Shown here piece after piece: positions 24,091 through 58,664 of a stretch of 64,000 nt of DNA. The stretch comes from Lobosporangium transversale (lineage: Eukaryota; Mortierellomycota; Mortierellomycetes; Mortierellales; Mortierellaceae). The translations under genes and the position numbers were made by a program. Numbering within the stretch: position 1 is the first letter of the stretch; each line of letters begins with the position of its first letter. The stretch lies in contig NW_019028980.1 of assembly GCF_002105155.1 (NCBI RefSeq), positions 1,723,511 to 1,787,510 of the forward strand. The letters are read 5' to 3'. Below the pieces are notes generated by a model. That model saw only the letters and a program-made list of their open reading frames with translations, had not been told where the DNA came from and did not search any database.

Positions 24091-24976
24091 ATGAAGGAGA
24101 TGTTCTGCAAGATAGTTTTTTTCTTCTCCTTCTTCTTGTTTTTAACTTCTGGTGCACCTGTACATTCGTTTGCATATGATGTTCTCAAAGAAGATACAGC
24201 AGGATTTAACGCTTGTTGCTCATGAATGTCTTTACTGAAGACAATGTTATGCTGTTGAGAAGTATAAGAGAGTTCATATTGAGCTTGCTGTCTGACCTCT
24301 GAATTATATCCATACACTGTTGTAAATATCATTTATACCGAAAAAAATAAAAAATAAAAAAAAAATAAAAAAAATAAAAAAAAAAGGCTCGCCACTATAC
24401 GAATGCAGTTTTTTTTGATTATGATATCCAGTTTCGATTCAGTTGAAGCAATGGTCTAGAGACGCATAGACATAATCTCCCGATCGCATTGTTTTCTAAT
24501 TGTTGCCCGAGTTTGTTTTATTTTATTTTATTTTATTTTTATTTTTTCACTTGATCGAAATTGAAAGCCTGAATTTCGGCCAATATGGCCAGGCTTTAGA
24601 TGGTTGCAAGCAATATAAAATTTTATAACATGTCCAATACTGGCTGCGAATTAGACACTCTTCACCAATCGCCAGTCTTTTCATATTAAAACATCGTTTT
24701 CACTAAACAAAGATAGTAATGCGCTTGGTTTGGAAAAGTCGGCATGAAAGTGATGCATTCATTTTTTTTATTTTTTTTAAAAAAAAAAAAAAAAAAAAAA
24801 CAAATTTCATTGGGAAATTCATGGGAGGAAGAAGATGGTCTATTGGTTTCTTTTAATGACATAGTTAATTGCAAGCAAGAAGGAAAATAAAAAACAACTA
24901 CAAACTAACTAAGCATGCTATCCGCTTTCTCACGTCAAAGCTAAACTGCAGGCAAAATAAAAGAAAAAGGGAAGGT
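24091..24976. other. AT-rich spacer right of the repeat island
   Basis: It holds several A/T tracts, including an AAAAAT-type repeat near 24340-24385 and a T8-A20 junction near 24772. The minus frame at 23952-24332 and the other short frames here are dominated by homopolymer and have no recognisable domain. Confidence 0.4.
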
Positions 24977-25195
24977 TCAAATAACGATCTCGTCTTCAAT
25001 GGCACGAGGTTCCAATCCTAAGCGATCAAGACATGTATGGTAGCGATCTGGGTTGGATTTCTTGAGATATTTAAGGACAGTCTGACGTTGATGGACCAAC
25101 ATGCGCAAACGACGATAGTTGTGTTTATCCTTCTTATTATTGAGGACGTGGTTGTTCAAGTTTTGAATCCTGACAGTCATAATGGCAGCTAATCG

Positions 25196-25226
<31 letters not shown>

Positions 25227-25276
25227 TTGGAAATAAGAAAACAAGTTTCATTGTTTTTCAAAAGAAAAAGAGAAAA

Positions 25277-25322
<46 letters not shown>

Positions 25323-26134
25323 GCCATGAGAATAAAGATTACCTTGAACTTCAGGGCTTCCAGTGTCACCTTCAAAGCGTTGGAATGCTTCCTTGGCTCT
25401 CCTGATGTTTTCCAATATGATCTGTTTTGCATTTCCATTCTCAAGGGCAATGATGCGGCGGACCAATTCTGCCTTCTGTTTCTCAATAGGGAGCTGAAGC
25501 TTGTCACTGACAAGTGTGGAGCGGTTCATGAGTTCTTCCAGGTGGATATGGGGGACCTTATCGAAGATCAATTCTGCTTCCTGATTAGTTAAGAAATGTT
25601 GGTATCCAGAAGGTTCAGATGTCGAAACTACCAAGGGCGCCCTAGATGATGAAAAGATGGAGGATGATAATGGTGAGGCTGAAAAAGAAAAGTTGGATCT
25701 TGAGGATGATGTTGATGATGATGATGATGTGCTGTCAGACTCGGTATCAGTAGTCGTGGGAGGTTTGATAGAAGCGAGAGGAGCTTGGAACAGAGTCTGA
25801 GGCTGAAGAAGCGAGCGCGTGAACTCTGTTTCCTTTCCAATGATATAGTCTGGTGTTGATTCTTCAAATTCACGATGTTTATCTTCCTGTTTCTTTAGGT
25901 TAGCCTTCCGGGTCTGAATGGCAATGTCCTTCCTTGATCGTCGAGCTTTAGCCAAAACAGCGGTTGATGTGTGGAAGGTATTGCATGGTGTTGCCTTGGT
26001 TGAAGCAACTACATTTTGAGATCGGAAAAAAAATAAAAATAAAACATTGTATATTAGCAAATGAGTCCACTGTGAATGTGTGGTTGCATTAAGGAGTCAA
26101 CTCTTCTGATCAGTTTTGCTGCAGTCATGTCCAT
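24977..26134 (-). CDS. MRPS15: Mitochondrial small-subunit ribosomal protein uS15m, three exons
   Basis: Exons: 26134-26071, 26008-25343 and 25188-24977, giving 313 residues. Exon 1 (MDMTAAKLIRRVDSLMQPHI) is basic and amphipathic and fits a mitochondrial targeting peptide, followed by a cleavage-like region (CNTFHTSTAVLAKA). A Ser-rich linker of about 40 residues precedes the S15 domain. The domain contains QRFEGDTGSPEVQ, then, after the second intron, AAIMTVRIQNLNNHVLNNKK and HNYRRLRMLVHQRQTVLKYL, the conserved S15 signature that binds small-subunit rRNA. Intron 1 is only 62 bases with a TGCTAAT branch-like motif. Intron 2 carries two long (ATT)n runs. It shares a 414-bp upstream region with POP5 on the other strand. 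Confidence 0.93.
25197..25322. repeat. Two (TAA)n microsatellites in uS15m intron 2
   Basis: There are uninterrupted AAT/TAA runs at about 25196-25224 and 25279-25322, both inside the intron 25189-25342. Confidence 0.95.
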
Positions 26135-26214
26135 TGATCGTGTATTGCAACTTTTTCCTGTTAAGCTCGCTTTGTGATAAAAAAAAAGTAACTTCGGCTT
26201 TTTTCCTTTTCTCT

Positions 26215-26248
<34 letters not shown>

Positions 26249-26548
26249 GTATAGCCGTACCCAAGGAACGTGCTCCAGGTAAGACTGTGCGCAGACCAAA
26301 CATGATAAGAACAGAATACGATGGACAAGATGTAGGAGTCAAGTGAGGATGGGGCAGCAACGTCTCCGAAGTCAGTGTGGCTAGTCTCACAGGAACTTCC
26401 TACGAAAATAATAAACATTTTTTCTGATCCGTTCATTTGTGATTTACGAATAAGCCACCATTAGCTGAGGGCAAGGCCAGCTAAGGCACAAAAGAAAAAA
26501 GACATTTCTTTCATTCGCGAGAAAAAAAAAAAAAAAAAGGAAAAAGGC
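26135..26548. promoter_or_regulatory. Shared divergent promoter region of uS15m and POP5
   Basis: This is the only sequence between the two divergent starts. It contains a T run of about 28 at 26217-26245 and an A run of 17 just before the POP5 ATG. No TATA box is evident. Frames running through it are homopolymer artefacts. The promoter role is inferred from position only. Confidence 0.4.
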
Positions 26549-27054
26549 ATGGTCCGCTTCAAGAACAGATACTTGCTATTCGAGGTCGTCTATGCGAACA
26601 CGCCATTACGATGGGCTTCGATTCCAGCTTCCAATACATTAGAACTGTCTTCGACAGCTGATCAAAATCCTTTTGGAGATACTGGAAGAAATAACTGTCA
26701 ACTACCACAAATCAGCAACAAAGACCTGATGGTTGCTCTTAAGGACTCGATAGCAGGGAACTTTGGAGATTATGGAGCTGGGCTAACACAGAGGCCATTG
26801 ACATGTATGTATTAGGGTTGATCTCCTTTTCATCATATGTGTTGTCTCTACCCAGGAATTTGATTTAAGGATTTCTTTTTTATTGTATTTATCATTGGCA
26901 GTAAAATATTTTTCACCACACACAAACATTGGGATTCTCAGGATATCGAGAGAGGAATTGCATATTGTATGGGGTGCACTCACCTTTATTACACAGCTGA
27001 AAGGAAACCCATGCATTTTCAGAGTCCTTCATACTTCTGGTAACTTTACATTTT

Positions 27055-27088
<34 letters not shown>

Positions 27089-27342
27089 GTTTAAAGCCCC
27101 TGAGGAGATCTGAATTGAATGATCAAGAATTGACTATGGTATGTAATCCTTATTTCATATTTGCTTTTATTGAATTGATAGGTACGATCCGACATTGTCA
27201 ATCACGGACGATTGCCTACGATCGTGACCGGATTATGGCCCTAAGGAACCAGGCACAGCTTTTGAAAGACGATCAGGCGTTTACACAGCTTGGCCTTGCG
27301 CTTAAGGACTCATTAGACGAAGTTAATGCGCTGGAGCTTTAG
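26549..27342 (+). CDS. POP5: Ribonuclease P/MRP subunit POP5, three exons
   Basis: Exons: 26549-26804, 26902-27039 and 27182-27342, giving 184 residues. It begins MVRFKNRYLLFEVVY, the hallmark start of Pop5, then FGDYGAGLTQRPLT. Across the first splice it reads TLKYFSPHTNIGILRISREE, and across the second HTSGTIRHCQSRTIAYDR. Pop5 is a shared protein of RNase P (tRNA 5' processing) and RNase MRP (rRNA processing) and acts in the nucleus and nucleolus. Phases match at both junctions (T|TA and G|GT). It is slightly longer than typical relatives because of a loop at residues 31-53. It lies 357 bp before MBF1 on the same strand. Confidence 0.92.
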
Positions 27343-27699
27343 AGTGGGGGATTTGATTAGGACTTGTTGTCTTTTTTCTTTTTTGTAATAGTATATATTT
27401 TTTTATTTATCTGTATTACTGTAATTAAGGAAAATGTAATCATAAATTAAAAAAAAAAGGCAATCTTTGCCAATGATCATGTGATCTGTACAAAAATGGC
27501 AAAATTTCGTACGTGAATGATTAATCACAGCTTTTTAAGTTCTGAAAGAATTGCCTGGAAGCTCCTTTTTTCCTGATCTGATCACTTTAACATTCTTTAC
27601 ATTCTTTACATTCTTTACATTCATTCTTCAGAAGAGTTCATCTCTCAGCCCCATACGACAACAACACACACCTCTACATTCACTCGCATATAATTCAAA

Positions 27700-28369
27700 A
27701 TGTCTGGAAACATCGGTTGGGACGATGAGATTGTCCTTCGTAAGCGTGCTGAGCATACCAAGGTCACCCGCTCCTCTGCTGACATCAACGCTGCCCGCCG
27801 TGCAGGTGCTGTTGTCTCTACAGAGCGCAAGGCTGTCACTAATGCTGGACATGTTGGTGAAGATTTCCGACGCATTGCCAAGTTGGCTGAGACTGATGAG
27901 ATTGTTGCACCCAAGGCCGTCTCCATGGATGTTGGAAAGGCCATTGCAAAGGCTCGTATTGAATTGAAGATGAACCAGAAGGAGCTTGGTGTCAAGGTTA
28001 ACGAGAAGCAGACTGTCGTAAGTTTTTTTTTTTTTTTTTTTTTTTTTCTAAGCCCATCCCGCTTCTCCTTCCCCCCTTCCCCCTTTCCCCCTTCGTTGTT
28101 TTTTTTTTTTGTGTACAGGATCTTGCAGTTTTATTTTGCCTGCCGCAGTCAGCCCTAATTATTATCGTAATCCTAATCATGATTGTTTTTTTTTTTTTTT
28201 TTTTTGCCTTCGCCCTTTCATCTATTAATAAATTGATGAATAGATCAACGACTATGAGGCTGGGCGTGCTGTTCCTAACCAGCAGATTCTTGGAAAGTTG
28301 GAGCGTGCTCTTGGAGTCAAGCTACGTGGCAAGGATATTGGCTCTCCCTTGACCTTCGGAAAGAAGTAA
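27700..28369 (+). CDS. MBF1: Multiprotein bridging factor 1, two exons
   Basis: Exons: 27700-28017 and 28244-28369, giving 147 residues, the family's normal length. The N-terminal MBF1 domain starts [19 protein letters not shown]. The C-terminal Cro/C1-type helix-turn-helix spans about residues 81-140 ([20 protein letters not shown] and [12 protein letters not shown]). MBF1 is a conserved coactivator that links activators to TBP and also guards against ribosomal frameshifting at collided ribosomes. The 226-base intron has a T run of about 24, a C/T-rich tract and a second T run. Codon use is strongly biased to C-ending codons (GTC, ACC, AAG), as in highly expressed genes. TTCTTTACA occurs in tandem about 100 bp upstream (27590-27620). 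Confidence 0.96.
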
Positions 28370-28391
28370 ACTCTGGTCGCTGATCGACCCT

Positions 28392-28427
<36 letters not shown>

Positions 28428-28936
28428 CAGCCTCCATGGAGAACCTCTTCTTTTTTTTGTTTTGTTTTTGCTTTCCTTCAAGTCCACCGAAGAACAAGAT
28501 ATTTAAATTTACTCGACGGTTACTTTGAGAGTTTGCATGCCAAAGATTCAACCTCCCTAAAGCCATCCTTAGACACCCTTTCTTCTGAATGCAACTAGTA
28601 GATGTATATAATAAATTTCCAAAAAAAAGTAATTGTGTCTACGTTTATAGTTCTTGAAGATTATCTGTGCCATTCATTTTATGAAAGTAATAATGCAAAT
28701 GTAAAAAAGTACAAGGTTGTCGTCCGAGCGACCGAGGTCGGGCCAAATGGCTCTGAGTCTGATCTCCAAACTCAATAAAAAAAAGCCACAGAATAGTCCA
28801 GCCTTTTTTTTTTTTTTTTTTTTTTTTTGATAGAGGAAACGGATGCATGTGTTGTGTTGATGAATGAACCCTTTTTTGGGAGCCAGCCAATTGCATTTCG
28901 CACCCCCCTTTCACTTCTTCTCCTATATACACGATA

Positions 28937-29045
28937 ATGAGTATAACAAAAAGGACTGTTTTAATACTGGACCATAGTCCACATGCGCGCAGGCGAGCAT
29001 GTCATGAATATGAGGAGAAAGCCATGGCTTCAAATGAGTGTAATG

Positions 29046-29076
<31 letters not shown>

Positions 29077-29983
29077 TATCATGGATTTGTGGTGTGCTTT
29101 TGAAACTTCAGTTACTGTTTTTTTTTTTTAAAAAAAAAAAATCCATCATCTCTTAATAAAAATAATTAAAAAAAAAAAGTTCCGGACAATGATGAATTCG
29201 ACTTGGAGCCATGTTCGATGTGGTCGAGTTTTGTTCATGCATGCCTGCATTACACCCGTTTAGCATGGGATTTATCACCTGTTGGTCAAAGAACACAGGT
29301 TAGTAAAAAGACTTTTTTTTTTTTTTTTTTTTTTATTGTCTTATCATGTAGATCAGAGCATTGTATTGGATACTCTGTCTTGACATACTCTTAATTTCAT
29401 CACTAGGTATCCGTCCATGTGGCACCAGGATCAGGACAAACGTCCGATAGTATAGTACTGAATACCTGGGCCAATCAAGATCAGAGCTTAGGGAGCGTAA
29501 GAAGGAGGCATTATGTCCGTTTGCGGAAGAAAAGAGAGAAAAAAAAAAAAAAAAAAAAAAAAAAGCGCTCGATATCCATCCAAATCATAATTTTTACTCT
29601 ATAGATTACTTCTCAATTGAGGGAACTGCAACTTCGGGATGATGACATGGAGTCCGTTAACGCAGAGAGCGATGACATGGATGATTCTGGCGGCTGGATA
29701 GAGCATGCATTGAAGGGCGCAATAGCTCATGCATTGGAACCCATACCAGTATATTCAACACCATTAAACACTATATCTACTCCATCAAAGATGACAATCA
29801 ATGTCATAATGCTTCTTGCAGACCTCAAAGAAGAAACTAAGATGGATGACGAAGACACAGAGATGGGGGATGAGGATGATGAACGCGCATGGATTTATGG
29901 CGATCTGGATCTGCGAAAGCTTCTCATGGATGCCCTTTACAGCCTACAGGAATGTGTCAGGAATAGCAGGTAGGTTTATAAGC

Positions 29984-44186: not shown

Positions 44187-44668
44187 GAGAGTGATGATGA
44201 GAGGATGCTTTGCAAATGAATGTTTTGATTAATTCAGAAATGGTAAAGAGAATCGTATTTTTAAACAGGTTTCTGTGACAGTTCAAGACAATAAGTCCGA
44301 GCGACTTTTTATTTTGGGCGCTGCTTTTCCCTGTCAAATTAAGGCGACAAAGAATGACCTCTGAAAGGGTCTTCCGACTCTCTAGAACCCTATTTTAGCA
44401 GTCTCCACTGTCAACTCTCTGTAGGGTGGATGCCTGTGACTCAACATGCAAATGGGCTCATTTGTGCTCCTCAACTTCTCCAATCCTTGCGTTTTCACTT
44501 TTTCTTTCCTTACTTCCCTCCTACCCACATCAGATAATACACTCTTGAAAACAACAGTATGTAAAAGTACTCACTGAACCTAAAAATCCAATTCATCACA
44601 ATAATGTAGGCTCGACCCAGCCCTCTCTATCTTGAAGTGGCCTTTTATGATCATCTAAGATTAGGAAA
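44187..44668. other. Spacer between ceramidase and the large transposon-like element
   Basis: This is the upstream region of the ceramidase gene. No coding region is recognised. The element's AT-rich outer edge begins near 44669. Confidence 0.5.
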
Positions 44669-44815
44669 GACACAACAAAATAAAAAAAAAGGGAAAAATA
44701 AAAAACAAAAAAATAAAAAAAAAATAAAATAAAAAAAAGAAAAAAAAAAAAAAAAAGAAAATATAAAAAGTATAAGAAAAGAAACATAACAAAAAAAAAA
44801 AAAAAGGACAACAAT

Positions 44816-45052
44816 GCCTATCATCAATGATCAGAATCGAAATCTCATATAATCCCACCTTCTGCCATTTCAGCGTTCATTAAGCATCCCTTGGAAGCCC
44901 CTGGACGAAAAATGAATAAATACCCATGGGCATGGTATGTCAAACCCACATCTTACCTTCACTTACTTCCCTATCCCCTAATTTCCTCAGCAAAAGCTCT
45001 TCACTTCTTCCAAATCCTCACTTGATATCTATCTCAAGTCTCAATCTCAGGT
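44816..45052 (+). repeat. Left terminal inverted repeat (core)
   Basis: It starts GCCTATCATCAATGATCAGA and ends TCTCAATCTCAGG. It matches the reverse complement of 54222-54458 at nearly every base (one clear change, ATCTATCTC to ATTTATCTC). It contains AATGAATAAATACC, a possible promoter element pointing inward. Confidence 0.92.
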
Positions 45053-45322
45053 TAATATTTACATTGATTGAAGGAATATCAGGCGAACTGTTCCACATAT
45101 ATACCTTGTTCAGATAGGGCATAGACAAAGCGTTCATGTTCGGTCATTTGATCCTTCTATGGCCAACCTATTTTATGAGAAGTGAATGGGAAACGTTCAT
45201 CTCTTTACACTCCCGTTCTGTTGCCTATAATTGATCAAATTGCTAACTTGCATGTGGTTAATTTGCCACAATGATCGGTTCCTCCTTTCTCGCTGTACTT
45301 TCCATATAGAAATCCTTTTAAA

Positions 45323-46675
45323 ATGGAGATTCCAATGGATGCTTCAAAGAAGTGCAGCGAAGTGTTTGGGTTCGAACCGAAGGAGAAGCAATTGATGGTT
45401 ATCGACTGTAATGCCAAAAGAAAGGACTGTATCCTTATTGCCCCATGCGGATGGGGTAAAACGCTTGTATATTTCCTTCCTCTTGTCCTCTGGCCAAATA
45501 GGATTATCCTTATAATAAGCCCTTTGAAGGCGCTCATGTGGGAACAGTCGAATAAGCTCGCTGAAAAAAACATCGAAAGTATAGCGCTATCCTCCGACAA
45601 CGATATTTTAAACAACAAGGAGCTTTTGATCGAGGAGCTTTCAATTGGTTCTTACAGGGCTGTGTTCGTCACCCCTGAACTTCTGTTTAACAGTAAATGT
45701 TTAAACGTACTTTGGAGGAAGGATGAATGGAAGCAGCGCCTTCTGGCCGTGATTGTAGACGAGGCCCATTGTGTGAGTACTTGGGGCGGCAACTTCAGGG
45801 AAGCATACTCACAAATTTTCAGGCTTCGACTTTTGACCCAGAATACACCCTTCATCGCCATTTTCAGCTACACTTCCAACTGCTGTTCAAACTGAGGTCA
45901 TTAAAGGGGTAGGAGTAGGACTGAGGCAACCTACGGTCATAAATGTTGGAAATGATCGCCCCAACATCAGGTTCGAACTGAAGGAATTGTTACGTACCGA
46001 GGCTTGGGAGTGCACCTCAGGTGCACTTCCATTTTTATTCATAAGGTCAGAATATCATGTGACGGTCATAGAGAGTCCTTGATAAAAGGCTCTCGTTTGA
46101 CAACAATAATAAAAACAACTTTTGATCTCCTTGACTTCTAATATCTGAAAAACATCTCAGGAATACAGGACAAAAGCCAACCGCAGCAGGACTGGCTACC
46201 CAGCTTTCGACTTCCTCTTGGATTTCAAAAAGACTATTGTTTATTTTGATACCAAGGATGAATTGATGAGTGTTTGCAAGTATCTGATGAGAAAAGCCGC
46301 TGAGAGATGTTTTTCATGCTCACTTGTCCGAAAAGGGCAAAATTCACCATATGGAACGATTCGAACAAGGTGATACCTTGATACTTCTATCAACAGAGGC
46401 GGCAGGAATGGGGTGCAATATAAGGGATATTGATCGCGTTGTTCAAGTCGGTATGCCTGAGTCCATAACGTCACTTGTTCGGCGGCTCGGGCGCGTAGCT
46501 CGCGATCCATGTCGGAAGGGGACCGGTATTGTCTTGATAAACTGACAGTATGATTGAAAAACTAGGGGAAAATCTTGGGAAGGTCACGGATACTGTATCG
46601 GTTTTAGAATTAACAGAATGGACACCATTCTTTGATTTTTTCCCGGTTCAAGTCGCAGAAATCTTAGGAAATTGA
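45323..46675 (+). pseudogene. RecQ-like superfamily 2 helicase, decayed
   Basis: The first frame (45323-45895) starts MEIPMDASKKCSEVFGFEPK and carries Walker A (LIAPCGWGKTLVYF), SPLKALMWEQ, FVTPELLFNS and the DEAH box (VIVDEAHCVSTWG). An extra T in the run near 45863 shifts the frame; the expected SATLPTAVQTEV continues in the next frame. A 172-bp LTR interrupts the gene at 45988-46159. Beyond it YRTKANRSRTGYPAFDFLLD resumes, then a second frameshift near 46300 leads to HLSEKGKIHHMERF and the helicase C-terminal motif SLVRRLGRVARD. A TGA at 46543-46545 follows, with residual coding to 46675. RecQ-like genes of this kind are typically repeated near telomeres or in transposons in fungi. Confidence 0.82.
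45988..46159 (+). mobile_element. Solo LTR inserted in the RecQ-like gene
   Basis: The 172-bp insert begins TGTTACGTACCGAGG and ends CATCTCA (TG...CA ends). It is flanked by a perfect 5-base duplication, GGAAT, at 45983-45987 and 46160-46164. Removing it and one GGAAT restores the helicase frame (ELKE then YRTKANR). It has a CATGTGAC box and a TGATAAAAGGC TATA-like stretch, and it contains a short palindrome, GTGCACCTCAGGTGCAC. A Ty3-like origin is inference. Confidence 0.88.
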
Positions 46676-48619
46676 ATGCAGACATTAATGCTCATCAGCC
46701 CATGCCTAAAGAAGTGTACCTAGAGGTACAAGATGGAGACAATCAGTCTGGATTCGTCCATAGTCCGGTTGTAGGTGGGGTGCAAGCGTGGTCACATAAT
46801 TGCGATTGCAAGAAAAAGAAAGAAGAGGAAAAGCCCAAAGCTGGGAATGTCCTACCACTCTTTGGAGGCATATATTCACAACCAGACCCCGAGCCATTTC
46901 GCAACTTTTTCATGGACTTCTCTCAATTGCCGAATTTTCCGACCCGCCGACTTTCGGTATCACCGGATGCACCTATAATCCCGCCATTTATTCCAGCTTC
47001 ACCTGGATGTGCTCCATCCCAACTTCTTCGTCGTCAAGCTTCCATTCCAAGGCTGCGATGGACAACTGTCCGCTATGGATAATAAATTTGGTCAAAAAGA
47101 ATCCCAAACATTGAAATGATATGGATCCACTTAACATTTAGCTTAGAGACACCTTAATTCATTTTGAAAGAGGACGATTGATATAAATGTTTGATTTTTT
47201 TTTTTATATATATATATGCAAATGTATCACTGTTACTGCGGCATTGGTAATAACGTGTAATTATCATTTATTCAGTATTGGGGGCAAGTTTTGAAAAATT
47301 CAACCCTGTCTGTTGTCCATGCCTCCTAGATGATGCGGCTACGATTTTGTAGGGCGTACTTTTTCCTGGAGGCAGAAATGTTAAGTTAAAGTCGCTAAAA
47401 TAATATAGCAGGCAGGTTTTGTATGCCCCATAACCATAAATATGCCAATGTCAGCCTGCTTGATCTCCAATTAGAGTCAGTATCTGGTGAATATTGCTGC
47501 TTCTACACTGAGATCACCCATCAGCTTATTTTTCTTAAGAACCATCTCTGTAGAGCCTGATAGTAAATAAAACTATCATTTACATCATTATCGCGTATGG
47601 CTCAAGCTGGTCATGGGTTCATTTTTGGAGGAAGCTGGCTGCTTGTTCGTGGCCATCAAACGGAACACAAATGGTTGATGACAAACGCAATCTTTGAAAG
47701 GTTGCAGCGATGTAAAAGCGCAATTCCTGGACGAAACACTGGCCTATAGAGATGAATATAGCTTGTATTTCAGGAATTTGGTAAATATAGGCAATGCAAA
47801 GGTGAAAACATATAATCTGACTTACATGAGAAACGTGACACCAGCACTTGAACAACAGACGAGCAACTAAACCATGCAGCAGGCACTTCAAAGGAAAGTA
47901 TCAAGCAATTGTCAATCTCATCGGCAAGCCGCTAACTAAAAAACAAGACGTCTGCATCACTGCCCTCATGAAGAGAAAAGACATTCTGCAGGGCTTGTTC
48001 CTTGTCTGGCTTTGAGATGGCTTGTAATCTACACAGAGCCTCGCTGAAGAGACAATGCATTCCACAGCTGTTTCCTCGGTCTCATGAGAATATTGCAGCC
48101 AAGCCTATACTGGATGACTAGATTCAAAGCTTTAATATAAAACGTAATCAATTCGCCCATACCGGGACACAAGTAAATACAAACGTCATCAGCCATGTTT
48201 AGCATTTCTAATTACATTGATATCATTAAGATCGTCTGACAAATACAACAAGCACTAGAGAGGCATCAATCAGGTTTTTTTTTCGTTGGTATGGGTAGAG
48301 AGAGGATTGTGATGATTGTGATTGGATGAGAACTGTTTATATTGTGTTATATACGTCATCGAAACGACTGACCGTGTATGCTACTGTATAATGGATAGCG
48401 AAGACGACAAAGGAAGTCTTACGCTCATTATCCGTACCAGCGACCCTTTCCTGCCCCGCCCACGGCCACCCAAGGAGCATACGATTCTTAGCGGTCGAAA
48501 AAGAAAGATGTAGTACCAGATCAGCCAGCAGAGAGAATTTAAAAAAAAAAAAAAAAAAAAAAAAGTTTATTTTTAGTTTAAGGGTAGTTCTGTAGCTCGA
48601 GATTTATTAAAGAGAAAGA
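46676..48619. other. Inner spacer of the large element
   Basis: A frame at 46672-47082 (136 residues, GNVLPLFGGIYSQPDPEP) may be a remnant of the helicase tail, but I do not recognise it. The rest shows no convincing coding region; short frames at 47619-47891 (minus) and 48322-48513 have no known features. An A run of about 24 lies at 48541-48564. Confidence 0.4.
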
Positions 48620-50167
48620 TTACACAGGAAAGGGTCGCTGGACTATGAAGGATAACGTCCTATTTATTGACTCGTGGACTCGTGTTCTGAAGGCGACCAT
48701 AAGCCTAATCACTTTTCCAAGTTCCTTCATATTCTGGGGGTTCTTCGGGATTGTTCCATGGCCTACCTGATACACCAAAACAATTTTGCCCTCGAAACGT
48801 GCTTCCAGGAAAGTAACTTCATCCAAACCAAAGAATACGCCGAACGAGCGAAAGTTCAAATGATTACCCTTGAAAAACTTTCGCATACGCACAAGTGCCT
48901 GTCCCATTGTAATCTCAAGTTTGCGAATATCTGAATCTTTGGAGCTCTGGTGGTTGTTCTTCTTCACTTCAACGGTCATCATGGCTATAATCAGACCATT
49001 CCGAAGACCCATCTTTATATTGAGGATATAGTCATGCGTCATATCTCTTTCCTTCCTCTCCTGCACTCGCTCCTCCCCCCTCTCCTCCTCTCCCTGCGAC
49101 GAACCAGTCTCTTGCTTCGCACTGCCTTTGGGGTGAGGCTTTGCCTCAGTAAAAACCAGCCTAGCACCCTCGATATCCCGAAAGCAAGCCAGCAAAGGAG
49201 TGGAAATAAGGGAAGTAACCCAGCCCTCCAAATTTCCCAGAGGCCTTTCGAGTTCGTTATTTTCCCAAAGCCAATTCCTGATTCAGACATTACGGACAAA
49301 TTAATAAACTAGTCGCATTTATGAAGGATTTTGTTGACCAACAGCTTAGGACATTCATTCACTTACAGATGACAGTATACGCTTCAGACGTATCTAGCCG
49401 TCCTTTGTTCAGGTGTGGCTGGTTTAATACACCGCATCTTTGGAGACATTTCCATGTCGATCATGAACACGGCCTCGACGCTCGTGCAACAATCAAAGTT
49501 ATTTGTCCATCGAGCTGCTTTAGAATATTGGTCATCCTCAATAAGCCTGACACCTTGAACCACTTTTTTAAGGTTGGCTTTGTGTTCGCTTGTTAGAGAC
49601 CTGTTGTACTCGAACCTATATGCATTAAATTGCTTATATTGCACACCGTCAAATACTAGCATTTCTGCAAAGTCCTGCCAGCTGTTATCGGACTCTTGGT
49701 CATCTATCCTCACTCTCTTATTTTGACCATCGTCCTTATTTTAACCAGGGATATATAAAGCAGGGTCAGTAAGAAAGTGATGTATTCAGTTACTACCATG
49801 AATAATGACTTAACAGGAGATCTTAGCCCGCATAGAAAAGCTGTCAGCGCTTTACCTGGTTACTGTTAGAGGGCTCCGCCGCTCTGGTACCATTGAAATA
49901 TTCACGGCATTCTTCGGTATCATTGATTTGCTCAAGCAGCTTTCTACACGCCGTAGTCACTGCTTGGGGAGTCAATCTATCGTGGATGATCTTCTTAATG
50001 CCATCCTCCCAGAGTGCCACCGCCGTATCAAGGTCCGAGGATACGCTGCGAGTTTTGCAGAAGTCCAACAAAGCCCAATTTCTGAGTATATTGGTTCTAA
50101 AGAATGAATCAACCTCCAGATGCGCAGGCGCGCTCCAAAGCAAAGCGTAACGAGAGCTAGTGTCCAT
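48620..50167 (-). CDS. Protein of unknown function inside the large element, three exons
   Basis: Proposed exons: 50167-49856, 49734-49433 and 49277-48620, giving 423 residues with matching phases. It starts MDTSSRYALLWSAPAHLEVD. The C-terminal half contains RDIEGARLVFTEAKPH, a Lys/Glu-rich linker, VEVKKNNHQSSKDSDIRKLE and LDEVTFLEARFEGKIVLVYQ. The EAK and EVK motifs, each after a hydrophobic strand, recall PD-(D/E)XK nuclease-like folds, but the match is weak and I make no functional claim. The second donor (ATGCG|GTGTAT) was chosen because it alone keeps the frame open. It reads in the same direction as the DUF6589-like gene and has no disabling change in the chosen model, unlike its two neighbours in the element. 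Confidence 0.6.
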
Positions 50168-51810
50168 GTTGTGAAGATGCGGAGAGGAAATTGGATATGC
50201 TGAGAAATTCTAGAATGTGTTATAAAGTGTGAAGAGAGTTTTCAGATTAGAGGATCAAAATGTGTTGGGAACGTTGACATTCTTGCTTGAAACGAGTTGC
50301 TTTTATACTTGTCTTCGTTCCAAGCAAGCTTATAAGGAAGAAATTTCTGAAAATGCTCTCAGCTATCATTGAAAGTATAAATATACTACGATGGTGAATT
50401 GCTTCGGTGGCGTCTCACTACGTGACGAACTTGCAACAAGACCTGCAACAAGCGAACGAATTGGCTGCCAATACACTCGAGAGTACTCAAAAAATATAAG
50501 AGATCGCGACCAAATGAAATGGATTATGCTTGATGTGGGCTCGCCAGAACATTTTGCTGTGCCTCTTTCTGCACCAAGTTGTAGCAAGAAGAGGCAAACC
50601 AAAATAAAAAACATCCCAATGAGGCCACATCAAGCATAAACTATACATTCAAGGCACTACTTGGAGAGGGAAGTTTTAGAGGCGGGTTGACAGATAATTA
50701 CATTCCCTAAGAGCCCTTGACTTTTTAAATATTTGGTCAATGATTCAGCTAAATCAATTCAACCATCGTTTTTGACCAAACAAGCCAGAGTATACATTTC
50801 TACATGTAATTATTGAATTGTTTTGGTCGGCTCAGACTTTTGAAACTTAAATGAGTTGGTGGCCAAAACTAGCCACACATTTAATACTCAAATCCCATTC
50901 AATGTGGCGCGCTTTTTTCTGGGGGCAATTCAATCAAATTATTTTTATAATATGTACATAGGACAACATGTATTTCTATGTTATGTAAAGTTTTGCGCCC
51001 CTACAAAGAGCTCCTAGTTTCATTAAAAACTTTATCAAAGGAATCCTCATGGCAAAGTTGGAGAATCCGCGAGTTTGAATTCAGTTGCATCCAAGCTGAC
51101 AACTGCTGGTCCCGATGATTCTTGAAAGAACCTAGTCACGGGATTGGAAATGATGACTGTACCTCGAATAATGTATTACCCAATCCATGTGGCACTGGCT
51201 GCCTGTATGTGGATCCTGCCGTTCATATACGGGCTTTTCTTTCGTTGACCATGTATCCAGTAACAGAGAGCTTTCTCTAAAGTCGGGCTATTGCGATCAA
51301 CGATATAATGTGAATCTCGGAATATCTTGAATGCAATACGCATTTTATTTTCATTATTAAAATAAAACCCTGTCGAGTGCCATATTGCCTTGGAAGGTTT
51401 GGCTGTAAAGCAACACTTCCTTTGCTCAGGATAATGAAAGATATCTAATCTAACTTAATATTCTTTCCCAGAGGGCGGGAGGCCTACATAGCATCGAATT
51501 CTCTCCTTAGTAAGATGATCCTCCGACAGAAATCAAACTTTCAGTATGGCCTTGAGCGATATTCTACGTTTTATTAATGGACCAAAGGCTTTTACTAGAA
51601 AAGCGGAAGCTTTTTCGGTATTTTGTTTATAAGATATTTATTTAAAAGTAAGAAACAAAGAGAGAAGGATGAGAAGGAAGTGAAAGGTGAAAAGGGAGAA
51701 AGGAGAAAGTACTGCAGTAAAATTGACTTTGAAGTAAAGAAAGGTGCTAGTAATCGGAGGAGCCAGGACAAAAAAAGGAAAACAAAGATAATTTTTGTCT
51801 TCGCAACTGC
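50168..51810. other. Spacer inside the large element
   Basis: A plus-strand frame at 50391-50639 (82 residues, MVNCFGGVSLRDELATRP) has no recognised relatives. The remaining 1.1 kb shows no coding signal. Bases 51623-51800 are A/G rich and precede the 3' end of the DUF6589-like gene. Confidence 0.4.
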
Positions 51811-54210
51811 CTATAGACTCTCATCCTCTACGTTCTCGTCATCTGCACCCTCGTCATTGAGACGGTTGGCACCTCCTGAGATCAATTTTAACATTCCTTC
51901 TATAAAGAGGTTTCTGACAGGTTGTATACCTGAAATGATGCCTTGAGGTGACTGGTGCTCGAGAATGCCTAAACGCCGTATTTCATTTATGACAAGAACT
52001 ATATCGCTTTCCTTGGATACCTCAGAATGAAAATAGCTGTCGAAGGATAGGTCAAATTCAGAATCGATCCTCGTGTCGACCTCCGCGAACAAATGCGCAT
52101 TCATTGAAATTGATTTCGCAAGGTAATTCCAGCTCATATTACTACCTGTAGCTGCATGAACAGATTTGATTAGACGGTTTGTATGTTCCTGAAACATGTC
52201 TGTTGGAATCCATCCATCATTTCTACCAGAGGTGTTAACTAACCACGAACGCATAACGGCTCTTTTGACCTTAGGTGCCCAAAGCCGTCGAATCCCATAT
52301 GTCAGTTTCAAGAGCTCTTTTCCATAGTTCTTTGTACCTTTCGCTTGAAACATGATAGTAATCGAACTCAGCACTCGCTCGATACGTCCAATGTCTCCTT
52401 CCTTAATAGCCGCACATAACTCAAGGTAAAATACCATATCCCTAATGAATTGGAACACATTTCTTGCCCCAACCCAAAGATTTTCTGAACTCCTTGGATC
52501 TGTCAGAGTTTGTTCACAAACATAATCTAATCCAGATCGAACAAGGTGGTCCATTTCATGCACACACCTTTCCTTGAATTGACGTTGGCTACCTCCACCT
52601 CCTTCAGTCTCAGCCTCAGGCACGCTCTCTGCTGTAAAGGGCCGCCTACCATCAGACAGATCTTCGGCATTCAAATGCCGCATCCAAAGCGTTCTGACCA
52701 TTGCATCAAAAACAATCCGAAGGAACTCATCCAGGGTGCGATAATCTTGTGATTGAAACGCCAAGCGTCTTCGATCTAAACAAGCCACAAAATGCGCCAA
52801 CGAACCTTCGGTAGACTGAGATCCATAATGTGCCTTAAATATGGTGGATGCAAGATTCATCTGAAGATGGAATAGTTGCATCGCTGGAAGTGCCCACTCC
52901 AAACGATCGAACCTGGTGATATCCGTCATGCGCCACTCTTGAGCGGAGTTTATACGAGAGATAGTACGCTGGTCGCCTCCGACGATGACCAACTTACCCT
53001 CAAACCAGCTCCTTTCCAGTTTAAGCATCTTCACACAAACCGTCTCTACAATCTCGATGTTCCCCGCGGTCGAGGATTGATCTATGTTCATCGTTGGTAA
53101 TGGAAACGTTACTGATGGCCTTACTTCGAGGACGTCGATTTTGTTCATATGAACTGCTTGCTGGCGAAACTTGTCCGAATAGCGCTGCAAGACCTCAGAG
53201 ATATGAAAATGATGCATGGCTTTCAGATGATTGTTATCCGGTATCAGCTCATGCAGTTTAAGGGGAGTGTTATCATATATCGTCGAGGAAAGCTCATCAA
53301 GCTGCTCATCTATGATGATTGTCGCTGTCATACCGCTCTCGAATGTGTCTTGATTGTCCTTTCGTTGATCCTCTTTCCGGTTTGCGATATTGATATTGTC
53401 GTATACCAACATCCATGGATTATTGAGAACTTGTTCACGAACGGTCTCCAAGGCAACTTTGGTCAAATACTTGAGCATGTTTGACGTTGTATCATAAGAG
53501 ACGCACACGCAAGCGGATGAGAGCATCCTGATAGTCCTCTTACTGCACCCATTTCCACGGAAGAAAAGCCCTAAAAATGTCTGCAATAAATTTGCCTGCT
53601 GATTCTTATGGAACATCAGCATACTTGCGATAAATGGTACTAGATCCCTCGCTGCCGCGACGAGCGCCCATTGCTGCTGGAAAAACCTGCCAACGTCGAC
53701 GTCAAAATCGGTGCATGCTCTTTCAAAACCTCGGTCATGCGACCAAATAAGAAACATTTGAAAAAATCAGGAGTAAGTCCTTCCTCCGGACAATGAAAAC
53801 ATTTCTTTGTAGACATTTGTTGCATTTCCTTCGCGACGTGTTCAGTAACAATCTCCATTGCCGACCAGACAAAAGATCCATCCCTTGAGACAGTCCTGTT
53901 AGATTTCCAAAGGCCCATCACCCTCGCTGGACCACCTTTGCTTTCGAATAAGCCAACCCTGTGCTTGACGAAGGGATCGTTTGAGTTGAACGCTAACTCA
54001 AGGAAAGTCGACAGTGACATCTTTTCATTATTTAGTATCTGGAAGATCTCGCGAACAGCTTTCCCGCGCTTTTTATCGTTTGAAGAGTTTTCGTTGATAA
54101 AGTCATGAAAAACATGTTTGATGGTCTATTTTCTAACATAGAAAGAGATCGGTTTAGTTACCTCTTGTTTAAAGCCTGAAACCTTATCAACGATTGACGA
54201 AGTACATCCG
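51811..54210 (-). pseudogene. DUF6589-like protein, candidate transposase, one frameshift
   Basis: The main frame (53757-51811) gives up to 648 residues. The N-terminal part lies in another frame: 54020-53640, open back to about 54126, probably after an intron with donor GTAACT and acceptor AAATAG from an exon at about 54210. The two frames must join near 53650-53740, where GLTPDFFKCFLFGRMTEVLK hands over to RDLVPFIASMLMFHKNQQAN; no fitting intron is visible. The core resembles, from memory, fungal DUF6589 proteins: NPWMLVYDNINIANR, LVIVGGDQRTISRI and RLEWALPAMQLFHLQMNLAS. The Asp residues in YDNIN and GGDQ could belong to a DDE/RNase H-like site. The protein ends DDENVEDESL. Transposase activity is inference. 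Confidence 0.7.
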
Positions 54211-54221
54211 GTTTAACATTT

Positions 54222-54458
54222 ACCTGAGATTGAGACTTGAGATAAATATCAAGTGAGGATTTGGAAGAAGTGAAGAGCTTTTGCTGAGGAAATTAGGGGA
54301 TAGGGAAGTAAGTGAAGGTAAGATGTGGGTTTGACATACCATGCCCATGGGTATTTATTCATTTTTCGTCCAGGGGCTTCCAAGGGATGCTTAATGAACG
54401 CTGAAATGGCAGAAGGTGGGATTATATGAGATTTCGATTCTGATCATTGATGATAGGC
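54222..54458 (-). repeat. Right terminal inverted repeat (core)
   Basis: Reverse complement of 44816-45052. Its inner edge touches the 5' end of the DUF6589-like gene. Its outer T-rich continuation runs to about 54588 and is read through by the frame that leads into the NACHT gene. Confidence 0.92.
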
Positions 54459-54588
54459 TGTCGTTATTGTTGCCCTTTTTTTTTTTTTGTTATGTTTCTT
54501 TTCTTATACTTTTTATATTTTCTTTTTTCTTGTTTCCTTCTTTATTATTATTTTTCTTTTTTTTTTTTTTTATTATTTTCTTTGTCAC

Positions 54589-57500
54589 ACCGCCGCCGCC
54601 CGCATTTCCATCATTACTCGATCGTATACAGGGTAAGCCTGATATCGAGAAGAGCCTGCGCCTACTCAAGCGTCAGCGGATGGAGACTAGAGAGGACCGG
54701 GGCTTTTATATCCAGCAGTATGCCAAAGCAAGTCCTCAAGCAAGTGATGGCAATCTGTTTTTGCTGATGGACAAGGTGAAAAAATTCCTGGACAGCGACC
54801 AGAAAGTGCTACTTGTGCAAGGTGATTCAGGGGCAGGCAAGTCGACATTCAACCACGCTCTTGAATCCACTCTGTGGGAAGTGTATCAAAAGAAACATGG
54901 TCGGATCCCATTGCTCATCAATCTACCATTAATCGATAATCCTGCAAAGGACATGATCGTAAAGCAGCTGCAAACATACGGCTTCACAGGGGCACAGATT
55001 AAGGAGCTGAAGAAGACACGGTCATTCCTCTTGCTTTGTGATGGATACGATGAGACCATGCAGACCAACAACCTGTATGTCGCCAACCGTCTTAACCAAC
55101 CTGGCGAATGGATGTGTTAGATGGTGATCAATTGTCGTAGTGAGTACCTTGGAGTAGACTATCGGGATCGCTTCCAGCCTATGGACCGTAACCACCAAGC
55201 AGATTCTGGATTATTCCAGGAAGCTATGATTGCACCATTTTCTGAGGCTCAGATCGATGAGTACACTGAACAATATGTCAGTGTCATGGACCTAATGTGG
55301 AGCGTGGATGACTATCAGCGAGCGTTTGCGGTAGTCCCTAGTCTGCGCGATCTTGTGAAGAATCCATTCATACTCTCACTCTCGTTGGAAGTGTTGCCGC
55401 GGATGGTAGATCCGCATCAAGATAGCACTAAAACTCTGATCAAGCGCATCACACTGTATGACAAATTTGTTGAGCTGTGGCTCGAGCGAGGCAAGAAGCG
55501 ACTAAGCGAGATAGTAGTATCAGAGGATAAGAGGATGTTCCGGACATTGTGTGATGAAGGGTTTGCACTGAATGGGATCAGATATTTGGCAGATCTGGCT
55601 GTGGCAATCTACAAACACCAAGATGGCAATCCGGTGGTGGAATACACCCCATCCAAGGACAAGGGTACATGGAAAGAGGAGCACTTTAGCAGGGAGAGCA
55701 GGAAGAACCTCCTCCGAGAAGCATCACCTCTGAACCGCACAGGTAGCCAATATCGGTTTGTCCATCGGTCTATACTGGAGTACTGTGTAGTGCGAGCGAT
55801 GTTCGAGCCACAGAAAGAGATGAGGGTGATTGCAAGTGATAGAGAAGCGCCAGCGGCACCAAGTTGTCGTAGAGGGAGTACCAGCTCCGTATACAGTTTT
55901 GAGGCGGAAGGGGGCAATATGGTTGAGCAAGATAATGATTCAATGGATCCTGATGAAGCCTCACCATTAGTGTGGAGAAGCTTTGTAAACGAGCCATCTA
56001 TTCTCCAGTTCCTTGTAGACCGTATCCAACTGGAAGCAAAGTTCAAAAAGCAATTGTATGAGTATGTAGAACTCTCAAAGAGCGATAGCAAGTGGCGAAC
56101 AGCAGCAGCCAATGCAATGACAATCTTGGTTCGAGCAAGAGAATCCTTCATCGGAGCAGACTTACGAGGCATCCAGATCCCAGGAACCGACCTTAGCCAT
56201 GGGCTTATAGATTGAGGAGCCCCACGAGCCTTTTCAGCGCCGTAGTATACTCGCCAAGTGGTGGTCATCTCGCCACAACTAGCGTGGATGGGTCAGTGCA
56301 TGTGTGGGAAGCCAGATCTGGCATGGGAACAGATTGCAAGTGGAGGTAAAGACAAGACAGTACAGCTATGGGATGCTGCATCAGGAGAATTAATACAGGA
56401 GCTTCAGGACTGTGAGTCCGAAGTTGAACGAATCATATATTCGCCTGACAGTCAGGAATTCATCATTTATGACGACAATTCCCACTTGCTGAGCGTGTGG
56501 GATGCTTGGTCTGAGCAGAGGGTTTGGCTCTTGGAGCATAAGAAGCCTGTCAGGGGTGTCCAATACTCTCCTTGTGGGAAATTCGCCACTTCACTTACCA
56601 CGTTCAGGGCATATCAGTGGAACATGCAGACAAGAGAGGTCATCCATACTATTATAGGCAATTCTGGTTTTGGCTATGAAATAAGATATTCACCAAATGG
56701 GGAACAGATAGCCATTTGTTGTTACGGCAGAAGAGTGCAACTTTGGGATACCCAATCCGGACAACTGATCAACCCATTACATGGCCACACTAATTTTGTA
56801 TTCCGTATAGCATATTCACCCAATGGCCACCAGATTGCGTCGTTTAGCCGAGATGGAACGATACGTCTGTGGGACACACAATCACAACAGTCTAGCCATG
56901 GCTCATATGGGTATACAGAACCAGTCTTCCGAGCAAAGTTTTTAGGGGATGGACAACATATCGCATCATTCAGTTTGGATTATACAGTTCGTGTGTTGGA
57001 CAGTCGAACAGGGAAATGTATCCATACTTTACAACAGTCTACATGGGACATCAGGTATTCATCTGATGGTCAGCTTGCCTATCGTGGCAAAGGGAATGAC
57101 CCATACATTTACCTTTTGGATACTCAATCAGGCAAGGTTGCTCATGCTGTGAAACCACCAAATTCGGGTGATAGCATCAGCGGCTTTGTTATTTCATCCA
57201 TTGACCATCAAATTGCCTGTTGCTACTCTAATGGAGATGTGAGTATGTGGAACACGCAAACGGGACAACTCATACGCACTCTACAAGGAAATGGCAGTAG
57301 AATGAAGCAAATGTTATTCTCGCCTAATGGCCGCCAAATTGCTTTATATGATGAAGACAAGAGGATCAGAGTCTGGGCGACACATTCAGGAGATCCACTG
57401 TATGAGTTAGAGGATCTGGACTTGACTGCCTTGTTTGGCGAGAAATATTGCGTTTACTCACATGATAGCCAGAAGATAGCATTCATCCAGGACAAAAAGG

Positions 57501-58664
57501 TGCAGCTACGGACTGCAGATACAGGAGAGATCTATTTCGAAATAGATTTCAAGGAGGCTCAGAGAGTGATTGCATTTTCACCATCCAGTCGACAGATGGT
57601 TGTTGGAAGTGATGAAGGGAAAATCAGTGTAGTGGATACTGAATCAGGGAACGTGTTACATGTACTTGAAGGCCACACTGAGAGTATACATGACATGTCT
57701 TTTTCTTGTGATGGCCAGTATATTGCCTCTGCCAGCATGGATATGGCTATACGACTGTGGGATGCAGAGTCAGCCAAGTGCCTAATAGTATCCCATTTGT
57801 CGGGACATATGTTTGAACTCTTGACTGGAATGTTTCTGAAGAAGGTTACTTTCTAGCACTGGCTCTGTTCGTATGTGGCAGATCAGCAAAGAGGAGGATG
57901 GCCAGTGTTATGCCCGCCTGAGATGGAGCACGGAGCCAACAGGTCTTCATGCTAGCAGTGCAAGGATTCAAGGTGTTTCTGGCTTGAGTGAAACGAATAG
58001 AAAACTGTTGGAGCAACATGGAGCTGTTGGCAATATAATACAGTGTTCGATCTTCCAAGAGGCAGGTCAGGAGAAGACAATGAGCTCCGCATCAACCAAG
58101 TTTAAAATACCAGAAAGCGATGGTTTGGATACAAACGCAATGAATAGTAATCCCAGAACAAGACCATTGATTGCTAAAAGTAAAGTTGCTAAAGGGCATC
58201 GATTCGTTTGCAGCAAATGTAGTGAATGTAGCGAGTATGAGCCTGTGCATTTTATTCTGAACTGCAGTTCTACTAGTCAGCATTATTGGAAGGAGAGTAT
58301 CCACGTGGATTTAGCACAGCGAACATCCCAATTTTTCTTTTTTCCTTGTTCTCTTAATAAAGGGTTAATGGATCAACCTGTTAGGAGGCATTTCCTGGTC
58401 GTGTTGCCATGCCTTAACCGGCCATACAAACATCTCATGAAATGTTTTTTCTTTGTACTCCCCCAAATGGACAGAATAATTAAAAGCCTGGTGTGTGTGT
58501 GTGTATGTGTCCCTGCAAGCTATGATGCACATATTGTAATACTTGTCATTAATTCCCCTCTTTTACTCTATTTGCTGAAATGCAGAGAATTGTCGTTTGT
58601 AACAGAATCATTTCTAGAATTGAATAGCGCGTTCCAACTTGATCTGATGTGGATGGATATTTAG
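54589..58664 (+). pseudogene. NACHT-WD40 (NLR-like) gene, decayed
   Basis: Coding similarity starts right after the transposon edge (PPPPAFPSLLDRIQGKPDIE). The NACHT domain has Walker A GDSGAGKSTF and Walker B FLLLCDGYDE. A TAG at 55118-55120 interrupts it in frame; the frame goes on as MVINCRSEYLGVDYRDR, so a CAG-to-TAG change is likely. A TGA at 56213 and a frame change follow, where the linker and the first WD blades are shortened. Frame 56258-57856 then encodes about nine WD40 blades (KTVQLWDAASGELIQEL, GTIRLWDTQS, MAIRLWDAESAKC). Two more shifts near 57815-57870 lead to RMWQISKEEDGQCYARLRWS. The end is uncertain; the frame stays open to 58664. Fungal NLRs act in self/non-self recognition and cell death; this copy should be non-functional. 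Confidence 0.8.

Follow-up and report, generated by a model that had tools for sequence, protein, structure and literature searches.

A probable, decayed DNA transposon of Lobosporangium transversale with a RecQ-like helicase and a DUF6589 protein between long inverted arms

RecQ helicases have been reported in Academ transposons (PMC3627910), and excerpts of later accounts give target duplications of 9 or 10 bp for AcademH and of 3 or 4 bp for AcademX (PMC10045372) and record AcademH in Mucoromycota (PMC10799480). The excerpted description of KolobokH is of a lineage found in fungi only that encodes a RecQ helicase downstream of the transposase domain, Kolobok elements having TTAA target duplications and a C/DxxH signature between the second D and the last E (PMC9587614). 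Here, an element encoding a RecQ-like helicase and a DUF6589 protein is described from a window of 64,000 nt at the end of contig C40 of Lobosporangium transversale (positions 1723511–1787510); the genome with which it was compared comprises 42.7 Mb in 127 contigs. Element coordinates without a contig prefix are window positions, and C numbers denote contigs of the same genome.

The window copy (44607 to ~54588) is best explained as a decayed terminal inverted repeat (TIR) DNA transposon, to which we assign a probability of about 0.85. Its essential genes would be those for a DUF6589 DDE transposase and the RecQ-like helicase, each starting at or just inside one arm and reading inward. For the group as a whole, RecQ-DUF6589 units were found to recur, with a shared TAGGCTCG terminus and with 9-bp target duplications; two of the copies are nearly identical and have open frames, and a structural model shows an RNase H-like fold. 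The group thus combines terminal inverted repeats, target duplication and a probable transposase in repeated units, as expected of a TIR DNA transposon.

A first-pass annotation of the window had proposed near-identical inverted repeats of equal length, and the 237-bp cores, 44816–45052 and the reverse complement of 54222–54458, indeed differ by one mismatch, at 45029. In a repeat search of the window, 244 nt aligned at 99% and the A/T-rich outer part more loosely, with 86% over 111 nt, which is far beyond chance. The ends assigned at first pass, 44669 and 54588, had to be revised, as the former lies ~60 bp inside the element and the latter is a truncation. The left end of the window copy starts TAGGCTCGACCCAGCCC, and an identical terminus is present in the sister copy L059 (L059:429); the TAGGCTCG terminus is common to the window copy, L059 and the ends of families B and C described below, hence position 44607 was taken as the true left end. 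A genome search with the left-flank query gave a 97% match of 44607–44664 on C38, and C117 and C62 carry the first 33 bases of this segment. At ~54588 the right arm breaks off without the TAGGCTCG terminus, directly against a truncated NACHT-type gene. Because the right end and its target duplication are lost, neither a target duplication nor, in the genome search, an empty site could be demonstrated for the window copy, both of which the annotation had suggested looking for. In the genome search with the repeat itself, among 17 places matched by the core, close copies (98–100%) are limited to the two arms in the window and one on C103 (98%), which lies beside a further DUF6589 gene.

A Pfam search of the window located the DEAD-box domain PF00270 in 45323–45892 (E = 4e-20) and PF20231 (DUF6589) at 51814–53757 on the minus strand (E = 3e-95), consistent with the pair of genes recognised at first pass inside the repeats. 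Homology to RecQ starts at 45350 (plus strand), ~300 bp inside the core, and that to the DUF6589 protein at 54101 (minus strand), ~120 bp inside the core; the outer genes therefore begin just inside the repeats and read inward, as had been claimed. Both are decayed. The RecQ gene, which was delimited by the PF00270 match and by tblastn with the RecQ proteins of L059, C62 and L056, is interrupted by a stop codon that ends the first open reading frame (ORF) and by a 172-bp insertion; its frame changes, and a stretch of it is missing. With this gene broken, functional proteins are hardly to be expected from the window copy. The DUF6589 gene has a single frame change, near 53645, and all seven conserved residues that were checked (D, D, H, D, D, E, E) are present. 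The best family match of the element RecQ proteins is TIGR00614, yet below the family cut-off. Between the two genes lies a third, a putative cargo gene already listed in the annotation; no Pfam match was obtained for it at E <= 0.05, and the only relative found is P0054 (BX616_004916), also of L. transversale. Two of its ORFs (49713–49387 and 49231–48623) are partly present in the sister copy on C103 (L060). This copy is the closest relative of the window element, with 97–98% identity in three interior stretches and deletions between them.

More complete units were found in sister families. Family B consists of L056, L057 and L058, with elements of ~5.6, 5.6 and 7.1 kb and arms of 550, 527 and 506–507 bp, respectively; the interiors of L056 and L057 differ at 12 of 4529 bases. 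In family C, the element on C62 is 12.5 kb long with arms of 603 bp, that on C37 is 10.9 kb long, with 608 bp for the one arm that was measured, and the element at C84:857–869 kb is partly decayed. In the better-kept copies the inverted arms measure 0.5–0.6 kb and begin TAGGCTCG, and one of the two genes starts at each arm or just inside it. In L056, 7 bp separate the inner edge of one arm from the start of the RecQ gene, and DUF6589 probably starts at the edge of the other arm; here and in L057 the two genes nearly fill the interior, which leaves no room for cargo. Over 61% of its length, the DUF6589 protein of L056 matches BX616_007517 of L. transversale, a partial protein of 477 residues, at 100% identity, as expected if the host is this Mortierellaceae fungus or a very close relative.

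Target duplications were assessed in 13 copies having two readable ends, which come from the stretches compared and are part of all genome places with element ends. Six of them carry genes (L056, L057, L058, C62, C37 and a mirror element on C103, see below) and seven are short and non-autonomous (L077, L078, L079, L085, L086, L088 and L089); the count excludes the one-ended stretches L080, L081/L082, L083, L084, L087 and C84/L062, the last having no left end. Exact 9-bp duplications flank 8 of the 13. Units with paired repeats and target duplications, which the first pass had suggested looking for, thus exist in the sister families. The family B element L058 (C46), which has its own 9-bp duplication, also appears to have entered a terminal repeat of family C type, or a place next to one (L058:1–135 and 7280–7320).

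A PF20231 profile search of the genome gave 53 matches, which were merged into 37 loci. At 16 of the 37, an element-type RecQ lies within 11 kb of DUF6589, and 13 of the 16 pairs converge, as does the pair in the window; since three C112 loci share one RecQ, the number of distinct RecQ loci is 14. The count used all 53 DUF6589 matches and 49 of 76 RecQ matches (E <= 1.7e-9), leaving out C85:103210, C87:193842 and C84:801536 (other helicases) and 24 weaker ones. Random placement, assumed uniform, gave a mean of 0.71 pairs within 13 kb and a maximum of 6 in 20,000 trials, as compared with 16 observed. The proposal that helicase and transposase travel together is supported: the pairs recur inside inverted repeats, and the repeats of the window are themselves linked to both genes.

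The predicted fold of a DUF6589 relative was found with VIA-align to match those of Hermes, P, Tn5 and RAG/Transib, being RNase H-like with a helical insertion; the best structural neighbours of the model are the hAT (Hermes) and P-element transposases. Because of this match, the DUF6589 protein is very probably a DDE transposase, and the conserved acidic residues D227, D372 and E611 would form its putative catalytic triad. The modelled fold and these residues strengthen the earlier designation of the gene as a candidate transposase. A comparison of the sequence with solved structures gave no chain at E <= 1, an NCBIfam search gave nothing above a cut-off, and none of 136 pattern matches in viral contigs was related to DUF6589. 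An assignment of DUF6589 as a transposase was not found among the open-licence papers searched, none of which names this family.

Several observations weigh against a TIR transposon with these two genes. The window copy itself has neither a duplication nor a right terminus. Among the 13 two-ended copies, four (L056, L077, L089 and the C103 mirror) are without an in-register duplication, L077 showing a 7-bp match out of register, and in L085 the duplication agrees at 8 of 9 positions. No RecQ lies within 11 kb at 21 of the 37 DUF6589 loci, many of which are fragments, and the uniform placement used in the chance estimate keeps repeat clustering outside the model. By itself, Foldseek reached an E value of 0.03 at best (to the P element) and thus had no match at E <= 0.001, and VIA-align only reorders the list of Foldseek.

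Since each gene starts at or just inside one arm, in the sister families as well as in the window, it is reasonable to suggest that the arm sequence would supply both genes with a transposon end, a promoter and a 5' leader, the role as promoter having been raised at first pass. The transposase would cut at the termini and insert with a 9-bp stagger, the helicase may help in end processing, copying or repair, and the arms would be homogenised by the copying of one onto the other.

The near-identity of the repeats had been attributed at first pass either to recent spread or to gene conversion, and of these, arm-to-arm homogenisation is favoured by family B, the window copy and the mirror elements, with family C counting against it. 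Within the family B element L057 the arms show no differences over 527 bp, and within L058 they differ by a single indel; between elements, the arms differ by 1–2 bases and 3–6 indels (2 bases and 5–6 indels for L057 as compared with L058). Apart from the one L058 indel, the states of each element are common to both its arms. As states are shared within an element and differ between elements, the pattern would most simply reflect copying from arm to arm after the elements had separated. In the window copy, the arms show one difference as compared with 5.5 expected from the divergence to L060 (44/1913), a weak test (P about 0.03).

Alternatively, the likeness of the arms could result from selection on promoter or transposase-binding sequence, or from recent insertion, with no copying between arms. 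The weakness of the window test leaves room for this, and the two C62 arms of family C show 3 differences in 603 positions, as many as one of them shows to the C37 arm (3/603; the other, 6). Nevertheless, we consider this explanation unlikely, given the contrast within and between L057 and L058 and the existence of two mirror elements, the arms of which (3.6–3.9 kb, 99.9% alike) include genes and so extend beyond any terminal signal.

The first mirror element (C84:60360–71266) has arms of 3.58 kb that are 99.92% alike, each with TIR sequence and a RecQ gene. In the PF20231 genome search there was no DUF6589 match between the arms; the flanks differ, and the right end is without the outermost 55 bp of the arm. 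At C84:61000–70700 (L071, L072), two near-identical, convergent RecQ genes were seen, and the centre holds ORFs. In the second mirror element (C103:15928–33367), which was compared outside its middle (24501–29499), the arms match at 99.97% over at least 3869 bp; both contain RecQ, and Crinkler headers occupy mirrored positions. The TAGGCTCG terminus is exact on both sides, the flanks are different and there is no target duplication. Judged from their sequences, the mirror elements would be the expected product of side-to-side copying that ran past the arm, and so an independent support for arm copying. The open-frame copy L056 (with L074 and L075; C40:772000–782500) is flanked by inverted copies of at least 2.4 kb at 100%. 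These may be a real palindrome or a misassembly at the inverted arms, and because of the latter possibility L056 was not counted as proof of arm copying.

A more specific proposal, which we offer as speculative and on present analysis doubtful, is that the arms are copied onto each other within the life cycle of the element, perhaps aided by RecQ, one arm templating the other at repair or copying after transposition, and that overrunning copying gives rise to mirror elements with doubled RecQ and doubled cargo such as Crinkler genes. If true, end renewal would be built into this DNA transposon, which would also have a means of capturing cargo genes and doubling them.

In L059, the interval between RecQ and DUF6589 contains a Crinkler header (PF20147, 4e-16) along with an ORF of 552 codons that has no Pfam match. 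A Crinkler header was found within 7 kb at 8 of the 37 DUF6589 loci, as compared with 1.8 expected under uniform placement with repeat clustering uncontrolled; 150 of 228 candidate headers were scored, and three of the eight loci (C12, C114 and C82) look like copies of one arrangement. The genome-wide excess is suggestive only, and L059 is the sole element claimed here as a Crinkler carrier. The genome as a whole contains at least 150 Crinkler header domains (PF20147).

The gene against which the right arm stops (Table 1) is one that we take, by eye from its ORFs, to be of NACHT/WD40 type. Its three best paralogues (82–83% identity) continue upstream, this part being open in L065 and L067, and a comparison with the three did not find the corresponding 5' part in the window, including the left flank of the element. 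As the paralogues carry upstream sequence missing here and the right arm is without its terminus, the element has lost its outer ~60 bp on this side together with one target duplication, either along with a piece of this gene or in exchange for one. The NACHT/WD40-type genes form a large family, with at least 39 other loci at 76–83% identity.

The 14 remaining matches of the core were rejected as transposon ends, as they share just 56–98 bp around AATGAATAAATACCC at 77–85%; by eye, most share with one another further sequence absent from the window and thus resemble another repeat. The promoter-like stretch of ~60 bp concerned (AATGAATAAATACCC...) lies at 44909–44968 and 54306–54365 and also at 23315–23375 (minus strand), and the 14 loci include two inverted pairs, 15 kb apart on C39 and 20 kb apart on C59. 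The 53 matches of an A-rich query were, besides the window's own two, merely A-rich stretches (74–91%). A 0.8-kb segment inside the element (47337–48170) has a 91–94% copy at C39:412034–413010, with no DUF6589 match nearby.

Table 1. Features of the window copy and its right flank (window positions).
Feature	Position	Strand	Remarks
Left terminal inverted arm	44607..45052	+	Terminus TAGGCTCG at 44607; A-rich outer part; core 44816-45052 with TATA-like AATAAATA
RecQ-like helicase pseudogene	45323..46986	+	DEAD part 45350-45862; helicase C part 46306-46539; C-terminal remnant 46544-46986
Solo-LTR-like insertion in RecQ pseudogene (LTR, long terminal repeat)	45988..46159		172 bp; TG...CA; 5-bp duplication GGAAT; many genome-wide copies
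Nested repeat	48388..48600		About 210 bp; copies elsewhere, some as inverted pairs
Third gene (putative cargo)	48623..50167	-	ORFs 50167-49847, 49713-49387, 49231-48623
Nested high-copy repeat	50388..50531		About 145 bp
Nested repeat	50802..50959		About 158 bp; at least 7 other copies
DUF6589 gene, probable DDE transposase	51871..54101	-	PF20231, tblastn, conservation, fold of a relative
Right terminal inverted arm	54222..54588	-	Core 54222-54458; T-rich outer part up to 54588; outermost ~60 bp and terminus gone
Right flank, outside element	54587..57856	+	Gene presumed to be of NACHT/WD40 type, without 5' part; exon from ~54587

DUF6589, a family of unknown function, thus gains a likely role as a DDE transposase, with near-identical open-frame copies in one fungal genome. 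The system is suited to asking what role a RecQ helicase plays on a transposon and by what means long inverted arms are kept alike, and the mirror elements, together with the Crinkler gene in one element, suggest a concrete route on which such genes could be moved and doubled. As a kind, the element is probably not new, since RecQ-encoding Academ transposons are already in print, to judge from the available portions of the reports (PMC3627910, PMC10045372, PMC10799480). Searches of open-licence papers did not turn up the start of one gene at each arm, arm homogenisation in this group, mirror elements or Crinkler cargo, a weak indication that these are new.

The group works like AcademH and probably is AcademH, as the RecQ-type helicase, the 9-bp duplications and the occurrence in Mucoromycota match the published accounts. 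It shows the predicted RNase H-like, DDE-type fold, an SF2 helicase of RecQ type, and exact duplications of the right length in 8/13 sister copies. This placement is by content and duplication length, not by homology of the transposase, and the label rests on published descriptions of AcademH rather than on a sequence comparison with an Academ protein. Such a placement by description, the hAT and P transposases as best structural neighbours and the convergent gene order with one gene per arm would also suit a separate, non-Academ superfamily, in which a DUF6589 transposase lineage acquired RecQ independently. This seems rather improbable to us, as it would leave the agreement with the AcademH reports in helicase, duplication length and host group, so far as the extracts of those reports go, to coincidence. 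KolobokH, also RecQ-encoding and restricted to fungi, is contradicted by the length of the target duplication, 9 bp here and not TTAA; moreover, Q404-L-F-H407 occupies the place of C/DxxH, provided that the second and third catalytic residues are D372 and E611, and the two genes here are on opposite strands, whereas the KolobokH excerpt has RecQ downstream of the transposase domain (PMC9587614), so that this assignment is very improbable. Finally, the absence of any unit, i.e. a segmental inverted duplication or unrelated genes lying by chance between shared promoter repeats, would agree with the two flanks of the window copy not fitting one target site and with the recurrence of the core part 44909–44968 in 14 other loci, but is contradicted by sister units with both termini and 9-bp duplications and by the 16/37 pairing, and is scarcely credible.

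Considered as AcademH, the group shares with the described elements a RecQ/SF2 helicase in a DDE-type transposon, duplications of 9–10 bp and an occurrence in fungi including Mucoromycota; the excerpts of these accounts (PMC10045372, PMC3627910, PMC10799480) make no mention of genes starting at arms of 0.5–0.6 kb, RecQ/RecQ mirrors or Crinkler cargo. With KolobokH, as excerpted, it shares a RecQ accompanying a DDE transposase and an occurrence in fungi, to which KolobokH is confined, and differs in the absence of TTAA and C/DxxH. The hAT (Hermes) and P-element transposases have the RNase H-like fold with a helical insertion that was modelled here; the DUF6589 group is set apart from them by the lack of a sequence match to any solved chain at E <= 1, by 9-bp duplications, by the absence of C/DxxH, and by its helicase partner. 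In the available part of their description, CRNs are linked to mobile DNA through helitrons and retrotransposon hot spots (PMC5289972), whereas L059 is an element of the cut-and-paste type. Telomere-linked fungal RecQ helicases, as partly described (PMC4522978), are likewise repeated RecQ genes in a fungal genome, whereas many of the RecQ genes here adjoin a transposase gene within inverted repeats. The proposed renewal of the arms of this DNA transposon may be likened to the renewal of LTRs in retroelements.

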